64,000 nucleotides of DNA from Methanoregulaceae archaeon (GCA_020850325.1 JADZEW010000035.1:1-64000); one strand, 5' to 3'. Shown: positions 4,063 through 12,831, numbered from the stretch's first letter. Notes: generated by a model not told the origin, from the sequence alone. Program-made: numbers and translations.

Positions 4063-4278
4063 TCAGCTCGGCGGAACCGAGAGGTCGTCCCGGGGAACGG
4101 AGCCAAACACGTCCACGCCATCAACCAGCAGCGTAGGCGTGTCGTAGCCACGCCGAACATCACTCATGGGCAGCTCCGTGAGATCCACGGCATCGAACCC
4201 CTCGGCCCCGAGGGCCTCGAGCATCAGGAGATGCATCTCCGCCGACGGCGCACAGTTCGGCTTAGTAAGAAACTCCAT
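4063..4278 (-). CDS. Glutaredoxin/thioredoxin-fold small protein
   Basis: The 71-residue protein has a glutaredoxin-like layout. After an initial beta strand (MEFLTKPNC) comes a CAPS motif in place of CxxC, then a helix, and later TPTLLVDGVDVFG with the cis-proline typical of this fold. A single active cysteine suggests a monothiol disulfide or glutathione-type role, or simple thiol binding. The frame is open to 4323, but the domain begins at ATG 4278, which has GTGAGG just before it. No partner gene is adjacent. Confidence 0.6.
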   Translation of the reverse strand: MEFLTKPNCAPSAEMHLLMLEALGAEGFDAVDLTELPMSDVRRGYDTPTLLVDGVDVFGSVPRDDLSVPPS

Positions 4279-4383
4279 CCTCACAGCTCTTTCAGTATGG
4301 GGCATCACGAGAGCCGTGTTCAAGCCACTTGGTATCGATGCCGTCGAACTGTGGCACGGATATTGCGAACCCTGATCACTATC

Positions 4384-5013
4384 ATGATTAGGTTACGCTA
4401 CGCAATCATCCTAGGGGCTCTAGCCACGGCAGGGGCGTCCCATGCGTCATCCCTCTTCACATACCATGGTCTTGTCAGCGAAATGAGCCGCTCGGTCGGA
4501 ATCAACTACGCCGGAAAGAGCATGACCGTTGGTGCCGGCCTCGCCAATGTTTCGCTCGATGGCAATCGAGTCGTTGGCGTCTGCGTTGATCTTGCCCATT
4601 GGAACACCAACGGCAGTTCTTACCAGGTCAATGTGTTGCCCATGGAAGAACGCGGAGCGACCGCCACCCGAGCCGCGTGGTTCTTTTCCAGCAACGTCGG
4701 CGTTGTTGATTCTAAAGACAAGGGCGCGGCGCTTCAGCTTGCCATCTGGGACATCCTGTACGACGGTGGCGACGGCCTTGATACGGGCACGTTCCAGAGC
4801 AGCGTCACAGGGGCAGTTCGATCGATCACAGGCACTTACCTCACCGACTCGACCGACCATCAGAGTTCGGCTGCCTATTACTTGAAAGCCATCACTCATG
4901 GCGACAATCTTGATATGAACCAAGACTACATGGTTGTCCCCGAGCCAGCAACGGTGTCGGCAATGGTCCTGGGATCCTTGGCACTGCTTCGCCGCCGCCG
5001 CAAGACTGCGTAG
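4384..5013 (+). CDS. PEP-CTERM protein with probable Cys-Gln thioester domain
   Basis: The 209-residue protein has a signal peptide (about 1-22) and a PEP-CTERM tail (VPEPATVSAMVLGSLALLRRRR). The central region has C67 in VCVDLAHW, then AAWFF near 97-101, and LQLAIWD with Q118. This Cys, then LQxAIW, spacing is the signature of thioester domains (TED). In Gram-positive adhesins, a Cys-Gln isopeptide-like thioester in TED binds host or surface amines covalently. Here the domain would sit on an exosortase-sorted surface protein. The frame is open from 4231, but the upstream part lacks a signal and overlaps the divergent gene, so ATG 4384 is chosen. A terminator hairpin follows at 5031. Confidence 0.8.
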   Translation: MIRLRYAIILGALATAGASHASSLFTYHGLVSEMSRSVGINYAGKSMTVGAGLANVSLDGNRVVGVCVDLAHWNTNGSSYQVNVLPMEERGATATRAAWFFSSNVGVVDSKDKGAALQLAIWDILYDGGDGLDTGTFQSSVTGAVRSITGTYLTDSTDHQSSAAYYLKAITHGDNLDMNQDYMVVPEPATVSAMVLGSLALLRRRRKTA

Positions 5014-5168: not shown

Positions 5169-7049
5169 TCAGCGCTTTTGGGACCCCAGCTTGCGCTCCT
5201 TGCCCAGCCCGTAGAGTTCCGGGTGCTGATAGGATCCCTTTTCGCCATCCGGCTTGTCGATCTCGGTCGGTGCGCCGTAGGTCTTCACAAACCGATCGTT
5301 GCGCTGGGCCTGAACCTGCCAACACACCTCGACATTGGGCTTGCTGGTGCGGATCTGGAACTTGCCGTTGGCGTAACGCTTTGATACTTTCGCCATGACG
5401 AAGTCATCCGACGTGTCCACCACCGTCAGCTGATAAAGCGGCTCTGAGTTGACTTCATCGAAGTAGTCAGGCAGCAGGACCGTGGCGTAGCCTCGCTCGT
5501 CGGTGACGACCTTTCCCGTGTAGAGGTTCATCGGTTTCGGCGACTCCGCGGAGTAGTGAATCAGGTAGCGGTTCTCTGGGTCGAGAGGATGGTCGATTCG
5601 GAACGACTTGGTACCCGAGGCTCCAAATCTTCCAAGGCTGAACACTCCATATCCATCCGTAAGGCTGAACGTCTCCCCTCGGACACCAACGGTGATTCCG
5701 GAGGCAGCCCCTGCAAGTCCATAGGATCCCACATTTGGTCCGAAGCTGTAGGATCCATAACCATCAGCCGAGGCGGTTGTAAAGGTGCCGCCGACGCCGC
5801 TGCCCGTGGTTGCCGCCGCTTCACCATAGGCGGCTGTGCCCTGGGTGCTCAAGACCTTGAAGTAGCCTGCATAGGTTTGACCGGTGGTCGCGGTCGAGGT
5901 GCCCTCTACCGCCCGCCCCTGCGTGCTCGGATTCTGAAAGAATCCTCCGCGGGAGAGACCAGACACGTTCTGCACACCCCCAAAGACCGCGACACCCGAA
6001 GGACTAGATACCTGGAAGAAACCACCGTAAGTCGACCCAGAAGACGCGGAGGATACTCCGCGCGCTCCGATGCCCTGAACGCTATCCACTAGGAAGTCAC
6101 CGCCGATCGTCTGCCCGATTGCCGAGCGAGACCAACCCGTAACTGCCCGACTGTCTGGCCCGTTCGCCTCAAACAACCCACCCGACGCGCCGCCGGACAC
6201 ATTCAAGGCTCTGCCCCGGACGGCGACACCCGACGATCCCCAAACCGCGAAATCGCCGCCGTAACCCGAGGTACTCGCCAATCCAAACACGCCAACTCCA
6301 TTTGGACTGGCGGCGGAACCTCTCACGCCGATCGTGGCTCCTGAGGATGCGTTAGCGATACCCGAAACGCCGACGCCCGAACTGCTCGCCACCTGGAACA
6401 GCCCTCCGTACGTCGAGCCTGAGCCATGATTGGATACACCCTGCACTCCGATGCCTGACTGGCTCGAAGCGGCGAACGAGCCCCCGATCGACGTTCCAGC
6501 GGAAGCGAGTGATTCACCGATGACGCCTGCGCCGCCCGCTCCCGAGCTGTAGAATCGCCCTCCGACGCCCGGCCCATTCAGCGAAGGCGCCGAACCCTGC
6601 ACGGCGGTGCCGTTCCCGCTCAACGAAATGAAGTCACCCGCGATGGTCGAGCCATTGTTGGCCGCCGCCGTGGCATACACTGCGCGCCCGGAGGTGCTGC
6701 TCGTCGAGAAGAACCCACCGTAGTGGCTACCCGACGTGGCCGTGGCATAGCCATAAACAGCACGGCCGCTGGGGCTCCGGCTCAGGAAGAAACCGCCGTA
6801 GCTCACGCCGCTCGGAGCCGACGCGTAGCCGTACACCGCGCGTCCTGTGTTTAGCGCCGTTGTTGCTGAGAAGTTGCCCGCAAGAAACGTCCCGGTGATG
6901 TTTCCATGCCCCGTCTGAGGCACCCCGGGCGTCACGGCCTGAAGGTTGATCGGGGGATCGACCAGAAACGGCGCGGGCTCACGGTACATGGGCAGATTGG
7001 CGAGCGCGGTCATGGCGGCGGCGTAGGCGAACAGCGTGTAACGGTTCAT
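5169..7049 (-). CDS. Secreted 26-residue-repeat fibre protein, paralog 1
   Basis: The 626-residue protein starts with a signal-like N-terminus and the family motif DPPINLQAVTPG (31-42). From about residue 69 to 450 it is built of units 26 residues long, with consensus GxAVxGxAxxxSGxxxGGxF followed by about six residues. Examples are GRAVYGYASAPSGVSYGGFF and GIGARGVSSASSGSTYGGFF. The last 148 residues (479-626) form a separate module opening with GTKSFRIDHPLDPEN and ending YQHPELYG. Two paralogs lie at 9286 and 11208. The layout resembles tail-fibre or adhesin proteins built from beta repeats, but no function is known to me. A good promoter (TTGCCA, 17 nt, TACGAT) precedes it, and AGAGGA sits before ATG. 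Confidence 0.85.
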   Translation of the reverse strand: MNRYTLFAYAAAMTALANLPMYREPAPFLVDPPINLQAVTPGVPQTGHGNITGTFLAGNFSATTALNTGRAVYGYASAPSGVSYGGFFLSRSPSGRAVYGYATATSGSHYGGFFSTSSTSGRAVYATAAANNGSTIAGDFISLSGNGTAVQGSAPSLNGPGVGGRFYSSGAGGAGVIGESLASAGTSIGGSFAASSQSGIGVQGVSNHGSGSTYGGLFQVASSSGVGVSGIANASSGATIGVRGSAASPNGVGVFGLASTSGYGGDFAVWGSSGVAVRGRALNVSGGASGGLFEANGPDSRAVTGWSRSAIGQTIGGDFLVDSVQGIGARGVSSASSGSTYGGFFQVSSPSGVAVFGGVQNVSGLSRGGFFQNPSTQGRAVEGTSTATTGQTYAGYFKVLSTQGTAAYGEAAATTGSGVGGTFTTASADGYGSYSFGPNVGSYGLAGAASGITVGVRGETFSLTDGYGVFSLGRFGASGTKSFRIDHPLDPENRYLIHYSAESPKPMNLYTGKVVTDERGYATVLLPDYFDEVNSEPLYQLTVVDTSDDFVMAKVSKRYANGKFQIRTSKPNVEVCWQVQAQRNDRFVKTYGAPTEIDKPDGEKGSYQHPELYGLGKERKLGSQKR

Positions 7050-7055
7050 TCCTCT

Positions 7056-7084
7056 ATCGTAAGGTATTTATTGCCAAATGGCAA
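7056..7084 (-). promoter_or_regulatory. Promoter of fibre gene 1, with palindrome over the -35
   Basis: On the minus strand, TTGCCA (7079-7084), a 17-nt spacer and TACGAT (7056-7061) form a sigma-70-like promoter. Its start point would fall at or next to the ATG (7047-7049). The -35 lies inside the perfect palindrome TTGCCAAATGGCAA (7071-7084), a possible operator. Confidence 0.65.
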
Positions 7085-7108
7085 GCAGAATCTCGGTCTT
7101 TTGCTGGC

Positions 7109-7137
7109 TTGGCATTTCGCGGAGTCGTCGCTATAAT
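7109..7137 (+). promoter_or_regulatory. Sigma-70-type promoter of the subtilisin gene
   Basis: TTGGCA (7109-7114), 17 nt, then a perfect TATAAT (7132-7137). Transcription would start near 7144, giving a leader of about 70 nt before the GTG start at 7213. It diverges from the fibre gene promoter only 25 bp away. Confidence 0.8.
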
Positions 7138-7148
7138 GCAATGCACCC

Positions 7149-7212
7149 GGAGCGCAATGGAGCGCTCCCTTCATTTCGATTGCCCTGGAGAGGGCAGAGG
7201 ATGGTGTCTTAG
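7149..7212 (+). promoter_or_regulatory. Structured 5' leader of the subtilisin gene with a 3-codon ORF
   Basis: Two hairpins are visible. One is GGAGCGC (7149-7155) with GCGCTCC (7162-7168). The other is TGCCCT (7181-7186) with AGGGCA (7191-7196). After the second comes AGAGG, then ATG GTG TCT TAG (7201-7212). This three-codon frame ends exactly where the gene's GTG start begins at 7213. It may be coincidence or a coupled leader peptide. Confidence 0.4.
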
Positions 7213-8835
7213 GTGCAGAAGTTCGTTTATGCCGCCACGATGATCGGAATCGCCGCCGTGGCTGTCGCTCAGGCTCCGGCAGATTTCGTCGATGGCGAGG
7301 TTCTCGTCAAGTTCCGCGCGGGGGCACAGATGGCCGCTCCCATCGACCACGCACGCATTGGCGCGCGACCGGTCGAGACGCTCCGTCGGCTCGATGTCCA
7401 ACGCGTCGCCCTGCCGAAGTCGGTCAAGATCGAGCAGGCGTTGGCCCACTATCGCAGTCTGCCGTCCGTCGAGTTCGCGGAGCCGAACTATATAGCGCGC
7501 CACTTCCAGGTGACGCCCAATGACCCGAGCTATGGCAGCCAGTGGGCGCTTCCGAAGATCAGTGCGCCAGCCGGGTGGTCCATCACCACGGGTAGCGCCA
7601 GCGTTACCATTGCGATCATCGACACCGGCGTGGACAAGAACCACTCTGACCTCGTCGGCAAACTGGTCGCCGGGTACGACTTCGTCAATAACGACAGCGA
7701 TGCCGATGACGACAACGGTCACGGCACGCACTGCGCGGGCATCGCGGCCGCACTGACGAACAACGGCATCGGCGTTGCGGGCGTGGATTGGAATGCCCGC
7801 ATCATGCCGGTCAAGGTCCTCAATGCCAGTGGGTCCGGCTCATACACTGCCATCGTCAATGGCATCACTTGGGCCGCTGATAACGGTGCCAAAGTCATCT
7901 CGATGTCGCTTGGTGGCAGCTCCGGCTCCAGCGCACTCGAGAGTGCCGTCAACTACGCCGCCAGCAAAGGAGTGGTGATCGTCGCCGCAGCGGGCAATAG
8001 CAATACGACGGCACCCAGCTATCCGGGCTACTACGCCGCGTGCATCGCCGTGGGTTCTACGACCAGCACCGATGCCCGGTCGAGCTTCAGCAACTACGGC
8101 GCGAGTTGGGTCGACGTTGCCGCACCCGGTTCGAGCATCTACTCGACCTATGACGGCAACACCTATGCAACCCTGAGCGGAACTTCGATGTCGACCCCCC
8201 ATGTGGCGGGACTGGCTGGCCTCTTGTGGGCCAAGCACGGCACGGGCGTCTCCGCCTCGACAATCCGCAACGCAATCGAGCAGAACTGCGACAACGTCGG
8301 TACCTGGGTCGCCTACGGACGGATCAACGTCGCAAAGGCGCTCGGCGCGACTGGGGGTGGAGGTGGCGGCGGTACGACCACCACGAACTACACCCCGGGT
8401 GCGGTCCAAGTGTTCGCTGGGACGGTCATTGGAGGCTCGGCAAGCAGCTTAACCACGAGCGACAACGTTCGCTTCGATCTGCGCAGCGCGGCGTCGGGCA
8501 ACAACCGGATCGTCGACTACGATGCGATCCTTACCGGCATCAACCGCGGAAATGGGGTCACGCAAATCGCGCTTACCGTCGAGAATCAGATGACGATCAG
8601 CGGCTCGCTCTCGGTCTATCTGTACAACTACGCTACTGGGGCGTACGTGCAGATCGGTTCCCAAAGCGTCGGATCGACCGACACGACGACGACCTACACG
8701 ATCACCTCGGGTGCGGCCAACTACGTGTCGAGCTCCGGAGACTGCATCGTCGGGTTCTATCGCACGCGGCGGAACAAGACCTACTACAACCTGCGCTCGG
8801 ACCTGGTCCGAGTTGCGGTAACGACCAACAACTAG
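7213..8835 (+). CDS. Secreted subtilisin-like serine protease (S8)
   Basis: The 540-residue protease has a signal peptide (about 1-20) and an inhibitor-like propeptide (about 25-95, with VEFAEPNY near its end). The S8 catalytic domain carries D137 (IIDTGVD), H170 (NGHGTHCAG), oxyanion N262 (AAGNS) and S325 (SGTSMSTPH). A run of seven glycines (381-387) links to a C-terminal domain of about 150 residues, rich in Thr, Ser and Asn, probably a beta domain for substrate or surface binding. The start is GTG 7213, since the first ATG lies inside the signal peptide. It likely digests extracellular protein or processes surface proteins. The gene has its own promoter and terminator. Confidence 0.93.
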   Translation: MQKFVYAATMIGIAAVAVAQAPADFVDGEVLVKFRAGAQMAAPIDHARIGARPVETLRRLDVQRVALPKSVKIEQALAHYRSLPSVEFAEPNYIARHFQVTPNDPSYGSQWALPKISAPAGWSITTGSASVTIAIIDTGVDKNHSDLVGKLVAGYDFVNNDSDADDDNGHGTHCAGIAAALTNNGIGVAGVDWNARIMPVKVLNASGSGSYTAIVNGITWAADNGAKVISMSLGGSSGSSALESAVNYAASKGVVIVAAAGNSNTTAPSYPGYYAACIAVGSTTSTDARSSFSNYGASWVDVAAPGSSIYSTYDGNTYATLSGTSMSTPHVAGLAGLLWAKHGTGVSASTIRNAIEQNCDNVGTWVAYGRINVAKALGATGGGGGGGTTTTNYTPGAVQVFAGTVIGGSASSLTTSDNVRFDLRSAASGNNRIVDYDAILTGINRGNGVTQIALTVENQMTISGSLSVYLYNYATGAYVQIGSQSVGSTDTTTTYTITSGAANYVSSSGDCIVGFYRTRRNKTYYNLRSDLVRVAVTTNN

Positions 8836-8847
8836 ACCGACTGATCG

Positions 8848-8877
8848 AGCCCGCCTTCGCACTCACGAGGGCGGGCT
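8848..8877 (+). terminator. Rho-independent terminator after the subtilisin gene
   Basis: AGCCCGCC (8848-8855) pairs with GGCGGGCT (8870-8877), followed by TCTTCAT. It begins 12 nt after the stop codon. Confidence 0.8.
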
Positions 8878-8924
8878 TCTTCATGTCTGAATCGAATTCG
8901 CTCCCATCATGCCTCTTCTAAGGC

Positions 8925-9278
8925 ATGAACGCAGCCAACCCATCCGTCATCGAACTTAAGACTGATGCCTTTAAGGCGGAGGTCATTGACAATGGCACAC
9001 CCATCCTGATCGACTTCTGGGCCCCTTGGTGTGGCCCCTGCCGCATGATGAAGCCCCACTTAGACGAGACCGCCAAGCAACTCGCGGGAGTCGTCCGCGT
9101 CTCCCAGGTCAACGTCGATGAAGAGCCGAAGCTCGCCGATGCGTTCGGCATTCAAAGCATCCCGACGCTCGTCCTGATGCAGGACGGCAAAGTGATCGAT
9201 GCCATGCAGGGCGTGGTGCCTTCAGGAGCCTTGGTTGCTCGCATTCGCGAGCGAATCGCCCAGCCTGCCGCCAACTAG
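8925..9278 (+). CDS. trxA: Thioredoxin
   Basis: The 117-residue protein has the thioredoxin active site WAPWCGPCRMM (CGPC) and the cis-proline segment SIPTLVLMQDGK. No signal peptide is present, so it should act in the cytoplasm as a general disulfide reductase. It converges on fibre gene 2, with 7 bp between the stop codons. It sits between the subtilisin and the second fibre gene, but nothing shows co-transcription with either. Confidence 0.95.
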   Translation: MNAANPSVIELKTDAFKAEVIDNGTPILIDFWAPWCGPCRMMKPHLDETAKQLAGVVRVSQVNVDEEPKLADAFGIQSIPTLVLMQDGKVIDAMQGVVPSGALVARIRERIAQPAAN

Positions 9279-9285
9279 CTGAAGC

Positions 9286-11148
9286 TCATCGGCGTTTCTG
9301 TGAGAGCGGAACACGATCTGGCCGCGGCGCCTCTCGATCGTCTTTGATCGGGGGGCCATAAAGCTCAGGGTGCTGGTAGGTCTTGCGCTCAAGACCCAGC
9401 TTCATTTCCTCCACAGGTGCGCCGTAGCGTCGAACCCAGAGGTCGTTCCGTACGGCTTTAACCTCCCAACTGACCTTAACGTTCCCCTCGCTCGTACGGA
9501 TCTTGAACCGATTCTCGCGGATTTCGCGAGCGATCTTCGCCTGGACAAACCTGTCCGAGTCCGTATCATCGACGACGGTCAGCGTGTAGCGGAAGTCCTT
9601 GTTGATCTCCCCGAAGTAGTCGGGAAGCTGCACCCAAGCCTCGCCCTTTGCGTCGGTGCGCACGACTCCATTGTAAAAGTTCTGTGGCTCCGGACTTTCA
9701 GAAGAGTAATGTAAGAGATACTTGTTCTGGGGATCAAACGGATGATCGATCCGGAAAGACTTGGTGCCCGACCCGCCGGTTCGGCCGTTGGCATACACGC
9801 CATAGCCGGAAGGTGAAATGTGCCTGCCGTAGACTCCATAAGTGGCCCCGGCGCCGTTACCCACATAACCGTACACACCGCGGCCATTGTCGCTATCAGC
9901 CACTCCAAAAGCTCCGTATGTGAAGCCGGTCGGTGACGAGACGTAGGCGTAGAGACCGCGTGAGTCTGGGCTCATGCTCTCGAACCAACCTCCGTAGTTG
10001 ATTCCAGATTGCGATGTGGCGCGACCCTTGACTCCGATTCCCCGATGGGAGTTGCTCCCCGCTAGGCTGAACGAGGCAACTCCGTCGGGCCCGTCATTAA
10101 ATGCGTAGAGACCGTAAGTGTTTCCCTGCGCGTAGTGTGCCCAAGCCATGACACCATACTGGGAGCCGAAGCCGCCCACTCCCGTCTTACCGTCGCCTCG
10201 AACGCCGGTTCCTACGGTGTTGACTCCCATAACGCCCAGGCCGTCGAGCGACACGGCGGAACCATAGACGCCGATACCGCTGCCGCTGCTGGAACTATTC
10301 TTGCCAATGATTCCCGTCCCGTAGGGCCCGGCTGTCACACCTTCGATAGCGACGTTGGAGTTGCTCACGGCCGTGCTCGAGTTCGCGACCTTAAATGCCG
10401 TGTTGGTGGTGTCGGCGGCCCCGGTGTAGGGTAGAGCCAGGCCGTCCGGTTGCCAGGTTGCAAGCCCGTTCGCATCGCTCATCAGGACTTTGCCGGCTGC
10501 CGCTCCGGTGGGAATCGTGAGCCCCGCGGCGAACGTGTTGGCACCCAAGAACGTTTGAGGTGCGTCTAGTTTCGCCACATTGGAGCTCAGCCGTAAGTCG
10601 GACAGCGTGCCAGATCCAATGTTCGATGCATTCAGCGCCCCCAACCCAGACCCGTTGCCGGAGAAGATGCCTGTCGAATGAACGTTGCCCTCGAAGTATC
10701 CGCCGAATCCGGTCGGGCTCACACTCTTTCCAAAGACGCCCACTCCCGTGCCCGACGCAGCCCCGGCTATGCCAAAGACACCTCGCCCCGCGGTGCTGTT
10801 TGTGGAGAAGAAACCGCCGTAGTTGGGTCCGCTCGTCGCCAAGGCATAGCCGTACACACCGCGACCGCTGACGCTACGATTCAGGAAGAACCCTCCGTAG
10901 CTGACGCCGCTGGTCGCAGCTGCATAGCCGTACACGGCTTGTCCGGTCAAGCTGTTTGACGTGGCGGATAGCCCACCCGCTATGAACTGACCTGTGATGT
11001 TCCCGTGGCCCAGCTGGGCCGTACCCGGCGTCAGCGCCTGAAGGTTGATGGGTGGGTCGACGAACGGAGCAGGCCCAGCCTCGACCCAAGACGAGTTACC
11101 GGTTACCGAAACAGCGGCGACGAGTGCGATAAGCGCGAAGCGGTTCAT
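9286..11148 (-). CDS. Secreted repeat fibre protein, paralog 2
   Basis: The 620-residue protein has a signal peptide and the family N-terminus (PPINLQALTPGTAQLGHGN). A few 26-residue GxAVYGYA units follow, then a segment with GNGSGL, LNASNIGSGTLSDLRL and GKVLMSDANGLATWQ, motifs common in phage tail fibres and trimeric adhesins. More repeats and the C-terminal module (GTKSFRIDHPFDPQNK to YQHPELYG) close it. TATAAT lies 5 nt before ATG 11148 (plus-strand 11154-11159), suggesting a leaderless mRNA. GTG 11151 is an alternative start. Its first part is very close to paralog 3 and less so to paralog 1. Confidence 0.85.
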   Translation of the reverse strand: MNRFALIALVAAVSVTGNSSWVEAGPAPFVDPPINLQALTPGTAQLGHGNITGQFIAGGLSATSNSLTGQAVYGYAAATSGVSYGGFFLNRSVSGRGVYGYALATSGPNYGGFFSTNSTAGRGVFGIAGAASGTGVGVFGKSVSPTGFGGYFEGNVHSTGIFSGNGSGLGALNASNIGSGTLSDLRLSSNVAKLDAPQTFLGANTFAAGLTIPTGAAAGKVLMSDANGLATWQPDGLALPYTGAADTTNTAFKVANSSTAVSNSNVAIEGVTAGPYGTGIIGKNSSSSGSGIGVYGSAVSLDGLGVMGVNTVGTGVRGDGKTGVGGFGSQYGVMAWAHYAQGNTYGLYAFNDGPDGVASFSLAGSNSHRGIGVKGRATSQSGINYGGWFESMSPDSRGLYAYVSSPTGFTYGAFGVADSDNGRGVYGYVGNGAGATYGVYGRHISPSGYGVYANGRTGGSGTKSFRIDHPFDPQNKYLLHYSSESPEPQNFYNGVVRTDAKGEAWVQLPDYFGEINKDFRYTLTVVDDTDSDRFVQAKIAREIRENRFKIRTSEGNVKVSWEVKAVRNDLWVRRYGAPVEEMKLGLERKTYQHPELYGPPIKDDREAPRPDRVPLSQKRR

Positions 11149-11207
11149 CACCCATTATAGGGGGCTACCGCTAGACGCGAGACGACATCTTCGAAATCTG
11201 CCCAACT

Positions 11208-12782
11208 TTAGTTCGGCGTCTCGGGGCTTGCTTGACGGCGGGTTCCTTGAGCCATCGCGCGCTCATCGCCGTAGCCATATGCCTGAGGCACCAGATACTT
11301 GCCCCGCTCGTGGGGAAGTTTGTCTCGCTCGATGCGCATGGGTGAGCGAAGTGACGTCGGATCATGACGTCGCCCCGTGACCTGCCAGTTGACTTCGACG
11401 CCACCTGCGGAGGTCCGAATTCTGAATGACCCGGATGCGAGCTTCTGCACGACCTTCGCTGCCACAAAGTCCGCCGAGTCGCTGGTGTCGATTACCGTGA
11501 GTTGGTATTGAATGTCTGTGTTCAGCGCCGAAAACCACTGCGGAACCGACAGCGTCGCGTATCCACGAGCATCGGTCTTGACGACGCCCCGATAGATGTT
11601 CATCCGCTCGTCACTCTCGACGCTCGAATGCTCAAGCACCTTGTTCTCGGGATCGAGCGGGTGGTCGATCACGAAGGACTTGATGCCGGCGGTCGCCGTT
11701 TGAGCGTAGATGGTGCCGTTGAACCAGCCTGCGTAGTTCGCGCCACCCCCGCTGGCCAACGTGTACAGAGCGTAGTTCGTCAGCGGGGTCGTGCCGATCG
11801 CGTAAGCCTCGACACCAAACCCGGCGCCAGTCGTGTTGTTCGCAACGCTTAAAACGCCGACCGCAGGACCAAGTCCAGAGGCCTCACTCTGGATACCACG
11901 CTTGACAGGTGAGAACCCGGCAGCGTCTCCGTTGTACACGATCACGGCGCTTCTGGAACTGCCCTGAGGTTCTTGAACAAAGAGGCGTGTGCCGGGGCGG
12001 CCCGATGTTAATCCGATCCCCAGACCGCCATCTTCGGTAAAGACGAAGCGGCTTCCACCGACTGACAACAGCAAGTCACTGTAGGGGAGTTGTGACGCAA
12101 TGGAGAACTTGGCACGCTCGACGTCGTCGATGAACGAAAGGCCCGATGTGGTTTCCAGAAGGGAAAAGCGGTTCGTGTCAAAGAAACTGTTTGGCGTCGA
12201 TCTCCGAGGAATGTCGGAGGACAATCGCTCGTCGGAAAGGGTGCCCGAAGTCAGGTTCCCCGCATTGAGGCTTGTCAATCCCGATCCACTGCCCGAGAAC
12301 ACCCCCGTGGAATGAACGTTGCCCTCGAAGTAGCCGCCAAATCCGTTGGGGCTAACGCTCTTGCCGTAGACTCCGACGCCGGTGCCTGTCGCGGCCCCCG
12401 AGATGCCAAACACGCCACGACCCGTGGTGCTGTTCGACGAGAAGAAGCCACCGTAGTTCGGGCCGGTGAAGGCTGTCGCGTAGCCATACACTGCCCGTCC
12501 GCTGACGCTGCGGTTCAGGAAGAACCCTCCATAAGTCGTCCCCGTCGCCGCACTGGCGTATCCATAGACCGCTTGGCCACTTACGCTACTACTCACCGCC
12601 GAGAGTCCGCCGGCAAGAAATCGTCCCGTGATGTTGCCGTTGCCGAGTTGCGCCGTACCGGGCGTCAGCGCCTGAAGGTTGATCGGCGGGTCGATGAGCG
12701 GCGGAGGCCCCTCCGCAATCCAAGGAAAGCTAGCAGCAACGGTAAGTGCCGATGCGAAAGTGAGGAGCCCAAAGCGGTTCAT
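11208..12782 (-). CDS. Secreted repeat fibre protein, paralog 3 (shorter)
   Basis: The 524-residue protein shares its first 180 or so residues closely with paralog 2. This includes the signal peptide, PPINLQALTPGTAQLGNGN, three GxAVYGYA-type units and SGSGLTSLNAGNLTSGTL. The middle then differs: repeats are few and there is unique sequence around SIASQLPYSDLLLSVGG. The IDHPLDPENK module at the C-terminus is present but more diverged (ending YLVPQAYGYG). A -10-like CATAAT lies 5 nt before ATG 12782. It probably arose by duplication of its neighbour, with the middle replaced or decayed. Confidence 0.83.
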   Translation of the reverse strand: MNRFGLLTFASALTVAASFPWIAEGPPPLIDPPINLQALTPGTAQLGNGNITGRFLAGGLSAVSSSVSGQAVYGYASAATGTTYGGFFLNRSVSGRAVYGYATAFTGPNYGGFFSSNSTTGRGVFGISGAATGTGVGVYGKSVSPNGFGGYFEGNVHSTGVFSGSGSGLTSLNAGNLTSGTLSDERLSSDIPRRSTPNSFFDTNRFSLLETTSGLSFIDDVERAKFSIASQLPYSDLLLSVGGSRFVFTEDGGLGIGLTSGRPGTRLFVQEPQGSSRSAVIVYNGDAAGFSPVKRGIQSEASGLGPAVGVLSVANNTTGAGFGVEAYAIGTTPLTNYALYTLASGGGANYAGWFNGTIYAQTATAGIKSFVIDHPLDPENKVLEHSSVESDERMNIYRGVVKTDARGYATLSVPQWFSALNTDIQYQLTVIDTSDSADFVAAKVVQKLASGSFRIRTSAGGVEVNWQVTGRRHDPTSLRSPMRIERDKLPHERGKYLVPQAYGYGDERAMAQGTRRQASPETPN

Positions 12783-12831
12783 CACCCATTATGGGGGGCA
12801 CATTCATAACGTTCACCCCAAAAATGGAAAA

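Follow-up and report, generated by a model that had tools for sequence, protein, structure and literature searches.

Candidate MAT-like fibre proteins form a mosaic chromosomal multigene family with a constant, phage-tail-related C-terminal module

In the mosaic adhesive trimer (MAT) proteins, through which the predator Bdellovibrio recognizes its prey, a constant N-terminal domain is followed by a beta fibre that is trimeric and by C-terminal domains that vary, and they are displayed on the predator's surface (Caulton et al., 2024; PMC10769870). A trimeric arrangement is also found in the R-pyocin foot, a jellyroll with a lectin-like network of loops (PMC6363177). Here we describe three minus-strand open reading frames (ORFs; 5169-7049, 9286-11151 and 11208-12785) in a 64,000-nucleotide stretch of DNA (JADZEW010000035.1:1-64000 of GCA_020850325.1; hereafter the window), which an earlier note had taken for paralogs and which our analysis confirms as such; we refer to them as w1, w2 and w3 (paralogs 1, 2 and 3). 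On balance, we consider it probable that they belong to a chromosomal multigene family of exported, MAT-like fibres that is diversified by segment exchange and gene turnover. Like the window family, the MAT superfamily of Bdellovibrio bacteriovorus comprises many paralogous fibres with phage-tail affinity, mosaic in composition and with a constant leader end, and its beta-rich fibres carry a C-terminal S74 or other beta-rich tip; for the window family, a fibre of this kind is suggested by sequence. The counterpart of the MAT trait of many mosaic paralogs with one conserved end is a set of 15 copies with genus-clustered leaders and mosaic orthologs, and the window proteins look as if they were built on the same plan. 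They differ in having a shaft of 26-residue GVYG units and one constant C-terminal module, whereas the MAT tips are varied, and nothing in the window family indicates predation. We read the family as MAT-like mosaic fibres that share a single constant phage-type cap.

This module comprises ~135 residues at the end of each of w1, w2 and w3, as had been proposed, and opens with (T/I)KSF.IDHP(L/F)DP; in relatives it likewise sits close to the C-terminal end, followed by a median of 21 residues. In w1-w3 it is not covered by any Pfam or NCBIfam model, and no model that would name it is common to the 45 relatives scanned. When w1-w3 were searched with Pfam, NCBIfam and PHROGs, there was nothing or only weak matches, and a PDB sequence search with w1 and the module profile as queries gave no real match; we found no paper on the motif IDHPLDP, and literature on Fimbriimonadaceae surface proteins and on secreted tail-fibre-like bacterial proteins yielded nothing specific. 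The module profile aligned with modules from IMG/VR viral contigs at an hhalign E of 2e-47, and one of these viral ORFs matches baseplate families while its adjoining gene matches tape-measure families. The gp19 proteins of the Arthrobacter phages Sonali and Mufasa8 match the module as well (E 2e-6 and 5e-4), with ~35% identity over ~90% of its length; Mufasa8 gp19 is annotated as a 'minor tail protein' and lies behind the tapemeasure and other minor tail genes, so that here the same module is found in a virion protein encoded in a tail operon, unlike in the window family. PHROG 6616, 'tail protein', matches over the module in relatives. Judged by these profile matches, the module and the C-terminal part of phage tail proteins are homologous, in support of the fibre-like architecture and tail-fibre affinity that had been suggested.

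The AlphaFold2 model of the module reached a predicted local distance difference test score (pLDDT) of ~95-98 over residues 61-130 of a 178-residue construct. Its best structural neighbour is the tip of the Pam1 tailspike (Z 8.8, 64 aa, 1.5 A, 23% identity), followed by the R2 pyocin foot (Z 7.3), AP22 gp53 (Z 7.0) and other tailspikes; among viral predicted structures, it matched the Mufasa8 minor tail protein (E 3e-10) and a tail-fibre-like protein of P-SSM2 (E 1e-8). These structural matches cover part of the module only. The predicted fold resembles the beta-sandwich of phage tail tip domains, although Z-scores in this range may reflect a common arrangement. H-type lectins (Helix agglutinin) and SLL-2 were also considered as relatives and, at Z 5.6-5.8, were too weak to claim. 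As in the C-terminal domains of phage fibres and tailspikes (Pam1, R-pyocin foot, AP22 gp53, T4 gp9), a beta-sandwich would thus end an elongated protein, but the window family is chromosomal and multicopy, starts with a signal-like leader and has no phage neighbours. Fibres with the S74 intramolecular chaperone contain GNGSGL and VGIGT-type segments and carry a constant C-terminal domain after a variable fibre. The window family likewise has a constant C-terminal domain behind a variable fibre with GNGSGL- and VGIGT-type segments; among the trio, the GNGSGL-type motifs are found in paralogs 2 and 3 only, where they had first been noticed. Pfam found no Peptidase_S74 in w1-w3 at E up to 1, the C-terminus being the IDHPLDP module, and there is no sign that this module is a protease.

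The window genome, that of a bacterium of the Fimbriimonadaceae (3.5 Mb, 41 contigs, 98% complete), has as its closest named relative in the genome collection a Fimbriimonadaceae metagenome-assembled genome (MAG). It contains 15 copies of the IDHPLDP module, 12 of them in paralogs beyond the interval first noted: eight on contig C22, three on C8, three in the window and one on C1. The C22 copies form one head-to-tail array of eight genes, two of which are interrupted (one frameshift, one in-frame TAA). Directly upstream of this array, on the opposite strand, is a XerC/D-type tyrosine recombinase gene (PF00589, E 2e-43; L016:2921-3778, G000:C22), which may be a housekeeping gene or relevant to the array. 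In Fimbriimonadaceae the family is patchy and expanded, with 12 of 85 genomes having a module match, mostly in 2-29 copies each, and the others none. A scan of GTDB genomes confirmed 327 relatives, and the best 79 loci come from Armatimonadota, Planctomycetota, Bacteroidota, Acidobacteriota, Pseudomonadota, Zixibacteria, Ignavibacteriota, Gemmatimonadota, Actinomycetota and WOR-3, going by the titles of their records; the module is thus spread over at least nine phyla, which answers the suggestion that it be sought outside its own. In the cultured Aureispira anguillae, a plasmid gene (NZ_AP026868.1 12749-14650; L191) has a module 51% identical and adjoins a gene for a protein sorted by the type IX secretion system (T9SS) and a recombinase gene.

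Neighbouring genera (L133, L135, L136, L137) have a second C-terminal module, VPDPTDPxKDIVYACxEGPEAAMYxRGTG, which comes after a leader of the same kind and at some places stands beside IDHPLDP genes. It is distantly related to the IDHPLDP module (hhalign E 1.5e-8, 27% identity), and a search for this variant (VPDPTDP...EGPEAAMY) in the window genome returned only the known IDHPLDP family.

The three parts of the proteins vary to different extents. Among the ten intact paralogs outside the window, the mean pairwise identity is 0.83 in the leader, 0.39 in the middle and 0.67 in the module, in line with the variable middle and constant ends that the earlier note had described. Its statement that the first thirds of paralogs 2 and 3 are almost identical does not stand, the two sharing ~80% protein identity over residues 31-165 with saturated synonymous sites (pS 0.68). 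We built leader and module trees from 30 proteins of several genera and counted changes of genome label against shuffled labels. The leader tree had 7 changes (least possible 5; shuffled mean 14.2) and the module tree 13 (shuffled mean 14.3); leaders cluster by genus and modules do not, and the two ends have different histories. The 15 copies of the window genome are scattered in a wider module tree.

Breakpoints can also be located within single genes. For the sister-species ortholog pair G001_L140 and c8c, third-position identity is ~0.4 over codons 1-155 and ~0.9 beyond, and for a second such pair, G001_a8 and a8, it changes near codon 285. In the gene G000_a5 of the window genome, the local leader is joined to a segment, starting at ~residue 210, whose best match is a gene from a different genus (identity mostly 60-95%); its own paralog a2 reaches 40-50% through most of the middle. 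Whole genes differ between species as well: at one syntenic locus, the sister species has one gene and the window genome three, and w1 and the neighbouring PEP-CTERM gene (4231-5013) are missing in the sister species, where the conserved flanks are 182 bp apart. In that species, a contig break falls at the w2/w3 locus. Repeat number, which had been put forward as a variable, hardly changed, since protein length hardly changed in the three available ortholog pairs (512/512, 575/577 and 547/548 aa). The variation lies in which segments have been exchanged, how many gene copies there are and which genes are present, and the proposal that recombination is one of its sources gains support from the mosaic orthologs and from the discordance between leaders and modules.

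The 26-residue repeats were claimed for all three proteins, and the claim stands for w1, where the identity autocorrelation at lag 26 is 0.315 against a maximum of 0.172 in 300 shuffles. In w2 it is 0.188 (shuffle maximum 0.158) and in w3 0.148 (shuffle maximum 0.160), the period by itself being within chance in w3. A hidden Markov model of the unit, for which shuffled sequences gave one match at an independent E-value (i-E) < 1, found 15 units in w1 (spacing mostly 26; about fourteen had been counted before), only 7 scattered ones in w2 and ~5 in w3, and 8-15 in the other intact paralogs of the genome; genome-wide, all repeat matches fall inside the 15 family genes. The family consensus, GRGVYGxAxAxSGxTYGVxGQSxSPx, consists of two half-units of ~12 and 14 residues. 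Tandem Repeats Finder detected no tandem repeats at the DNA level in the interval, the repeats being seen in protein only, and the units have therefore diverged. A full-length model of w1, made as a monomer only, has two strands per repeat unit, with a pLDDT of ~35-55 (mean 46) in the shaft; it rested on 15 aligned sequences and was too weak for a structure search.

Support for a fibre comes from the company the module keeps in other bacteria, where it sits in proteins with collagen (L094, L111; E 1e-17), a YadA-head repeat (L102) or phage-fibre shafts, and where module-bearing proteins of other phyla start with a region akin to the MAT N-domain (NF053851; 10 of 45 relatives, E down to 1.5e-11). 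Because the relatives carry these shafts and this domain, a trimeric fibre is likely by analogy. Pfam gave no match to a YadA anchor barrel in w1-w3, and the relative with the YadA-head repeat ends in the module instead. The N-termini of w1-w3 have a short basic and then a hydrophobic stretch. A hydrophobic N-terminal stretch (mean hydropathy at least 1.6) is present in 61 of 72 cellular relatives and appears to be lacking in the viral versions; export of the family proteins is likely on these features. With no cysteine in w2 and w3, and a single one in w1 far from the N-terminus, the three are not lipoproteins. No PEP-CTERM motif was matched in w1-w3; two proteins near the cluster do match, at 2352-2987 and 4231-5013 (the latter just below the Pfam cut-off).

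In the arrangement we favour, the cell-proximal end would be formed by the short leader, which resembles a signal peptide, together with an N-terminal segment specific to the genus, LQxxTPGxxQxGxxNxSG; the 26-residue units would form a shaft rich in beta structure that points outward and is often broken by a GNGSGL hinge and unique segments; and the IDHPLDP module, a phage-tail-type beta-sandwich, would close the fibre as a trimerizing cap or tip. We infer a distal position for the module and an adhesive function for the fibre. Variation is concentrated in the middle part, which probably also determines most of what the fibre binds, be it glycans or neighbouring cells. New variants would arise when a genus-specific leader is recombined with other middle-plus-module segments, and also by whole-gene gain and loss in tandem clusters. 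A more specific proposal, which we put forward tentatively and regard as somewhat unlikely, is a cassette system for surface diversity in which a leader particular to the genus would dock to a surface partner, whole middle-plus-module segments would be exchanged within and between genera, each gene would have its own promoter, and the constant IDHPLDP cap would make the segments interchangeable. If the family is what we propose, MAT-like mosaic fibres would extend from the predatory Bdellovibrio to the little-studied phylum Armatimonadota, and phage-type fibre caps would be in use in bacterial fibres of many phyla. A domain that is widespread yet described by neither Pfam nor NCBIfam would gain a structural hypothesis, and it becomes testable whether a constant cap permits the exchange of fibre segments.

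Several observations weigh against this reading. Even with E allowed to reach 1, the MAT N-domain (NF053851; ~130 aa, beta-rich, after the signal peptide) was not matched in w1-w3, and because of its absence we do not file the window proteins as MAT members; it was not matched in the window genome either, in a search that also gave no match in the control genomes. Where looked at singly, the matches of the relatives to NF053851 do not reach the curated threshold of 60 bits. The N-terminal hydrophobicity of the trio is modest (15-residue mean hydropathy 1.4-2.0, lowest in w1), and the shaft model is of low confidence. Finally, the module is conserved among paralogs and phyla, as would be expected of a structural cap more than of a variable tip that binds receptors.

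This conservation bears most directly on the possibility that the proteins are extracellular sheath or matrix material, in which the module, comparable to S74 or to the LEC domain of KP32 gp38, would act only as a cap for folding or trimerization and would have no specific receptor. Strong conservation among paralogs and phyla is unlike a receptor-binding tip, the Gly/Ser/Ala/Tyr repeats are of low complexity, and in KP32 gp38 trimerization is reported to require the LEC domain, capsule binding being attributed mainly to a different module (PMC13082707). However, diverse middles, many mosaic paralogs and a patchy spread within the family's genomes fit recognition proteins better, and we judge a sheath or matrix to be unlikely. 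The cap-like character of the module also argues against secreted tail-fibre mimics that would cover surface glycans and compete with phage adsorption: many variable paralogs with C-terminal homology to phage tail proteins would suit that role, but the module is more like a conserved cap than a variable receptor-binding part, no association with defence genes was seen (none was sought), and the idea seems very improbable.

The same homology could mean that w1-w3 come from a prophage or tailocin, as its tail fibres or remnants of them, which we find barely credible. The annotated flanks in the window are normal chromosomal genes (helicase, superoxide dismutase, thioredoxin, globin, inositol monophosphatase and YceG), there are no phage genes among the annotated neighbours, and a prophage origin was rejected on these grounds; the 15 copies at four places and the hydrophobic N-terminal stretch of most cellular relatives, which viral versions appear to lack, point the same way. 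It is also improbable that the variation between genomes is mostly an artefact of assembling repetitive genes in MAGs, the family being real and not recombining. The sister-species genome G001 is fragmented, with some contigs ending at family genes, and the two interrupted genes of the C22 array would fit such errors, but the w1 junction in G001 and the locus with one gene instead of three lie inside contigs with conserved flanks, and the discordance between leaders and modules extends across several genera. Moreover, synonymous sites are saturated in the leaders joined at the G001_L140 breakpoint, so that copies close enough to be confused with one another are not involved.

The positions of the window genes and their parts are collected in Table 1. 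The close spacing that was thought to invite recombination holds for w2 and w3, which are adjacent, but not for w1, which is set apart from w2 by the subtilase and thioredoxin genes on the opposite strand.

Table 1. Family genes, their parts and intervening neighbours in the window
Feature	Position	Strand	Description
w1 / paralog 1	5169..7049	-	626 aa; signal-like leader, ~15 26-residue units, C-terminal module
w1 repeat shaft	5646..6845	-	units start at residues 69-443, mostly 26 apart
w1 IDHPLDP module and basic tail	5169..5615	-	begins at residue 479
w2 / paralog 2	9286..11148	-	620 aa counted from ATG at 11148; open ORF 9286-11151
w2 leader	10660..11148	-	residues 1-163, to GNGSGL motif; signal-like segment, LQALTPGTAQ motif, three repeat units
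w2 C-terminal module	9286..9768	-	
w3 / paralog 3	11208..12782	-	524 aa counted from ATG at 12782; open ORF 11208-12785
w3 leader	12294..12782	-	residues 1-163, to GSGSGL motif
w3 C-terminal module	11208..11687	-	most divergent window copy, 50-52% to w1
Subtilase (PF00082) with prodomain, non-family neighbour	7213..8835	+	between w1 and w2
Thioredoxin, non-family neighbour	8925..9278	+	between w1 and w2

Upstream of w2 and w3 are the hexamers TATAAT (11154-11159) and CATAAT (12788-12793), respectively. Because each ends five bases before an ATG, the sequence suggests that the ATGs at 11148 and 12782 are the better starts and that the mRNAs are possibly leaderless, the hexamers being a consensus resemblance only. 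We also note that most of the family genes outside the window (L016, L018) have a conserved upstream stretch of ~60 bp with a TAAGAT, TATCAT or TATGAT hexamer ~45 bases before the start, and it is therefore possible that each has its own promoter. At the other end of the proteins, 13 of the 15 family members terminate in R and one more in K, often as RKR, RNR or RSR following a Pro/Gln-rich tail, and this basic end could be a sorting feature.

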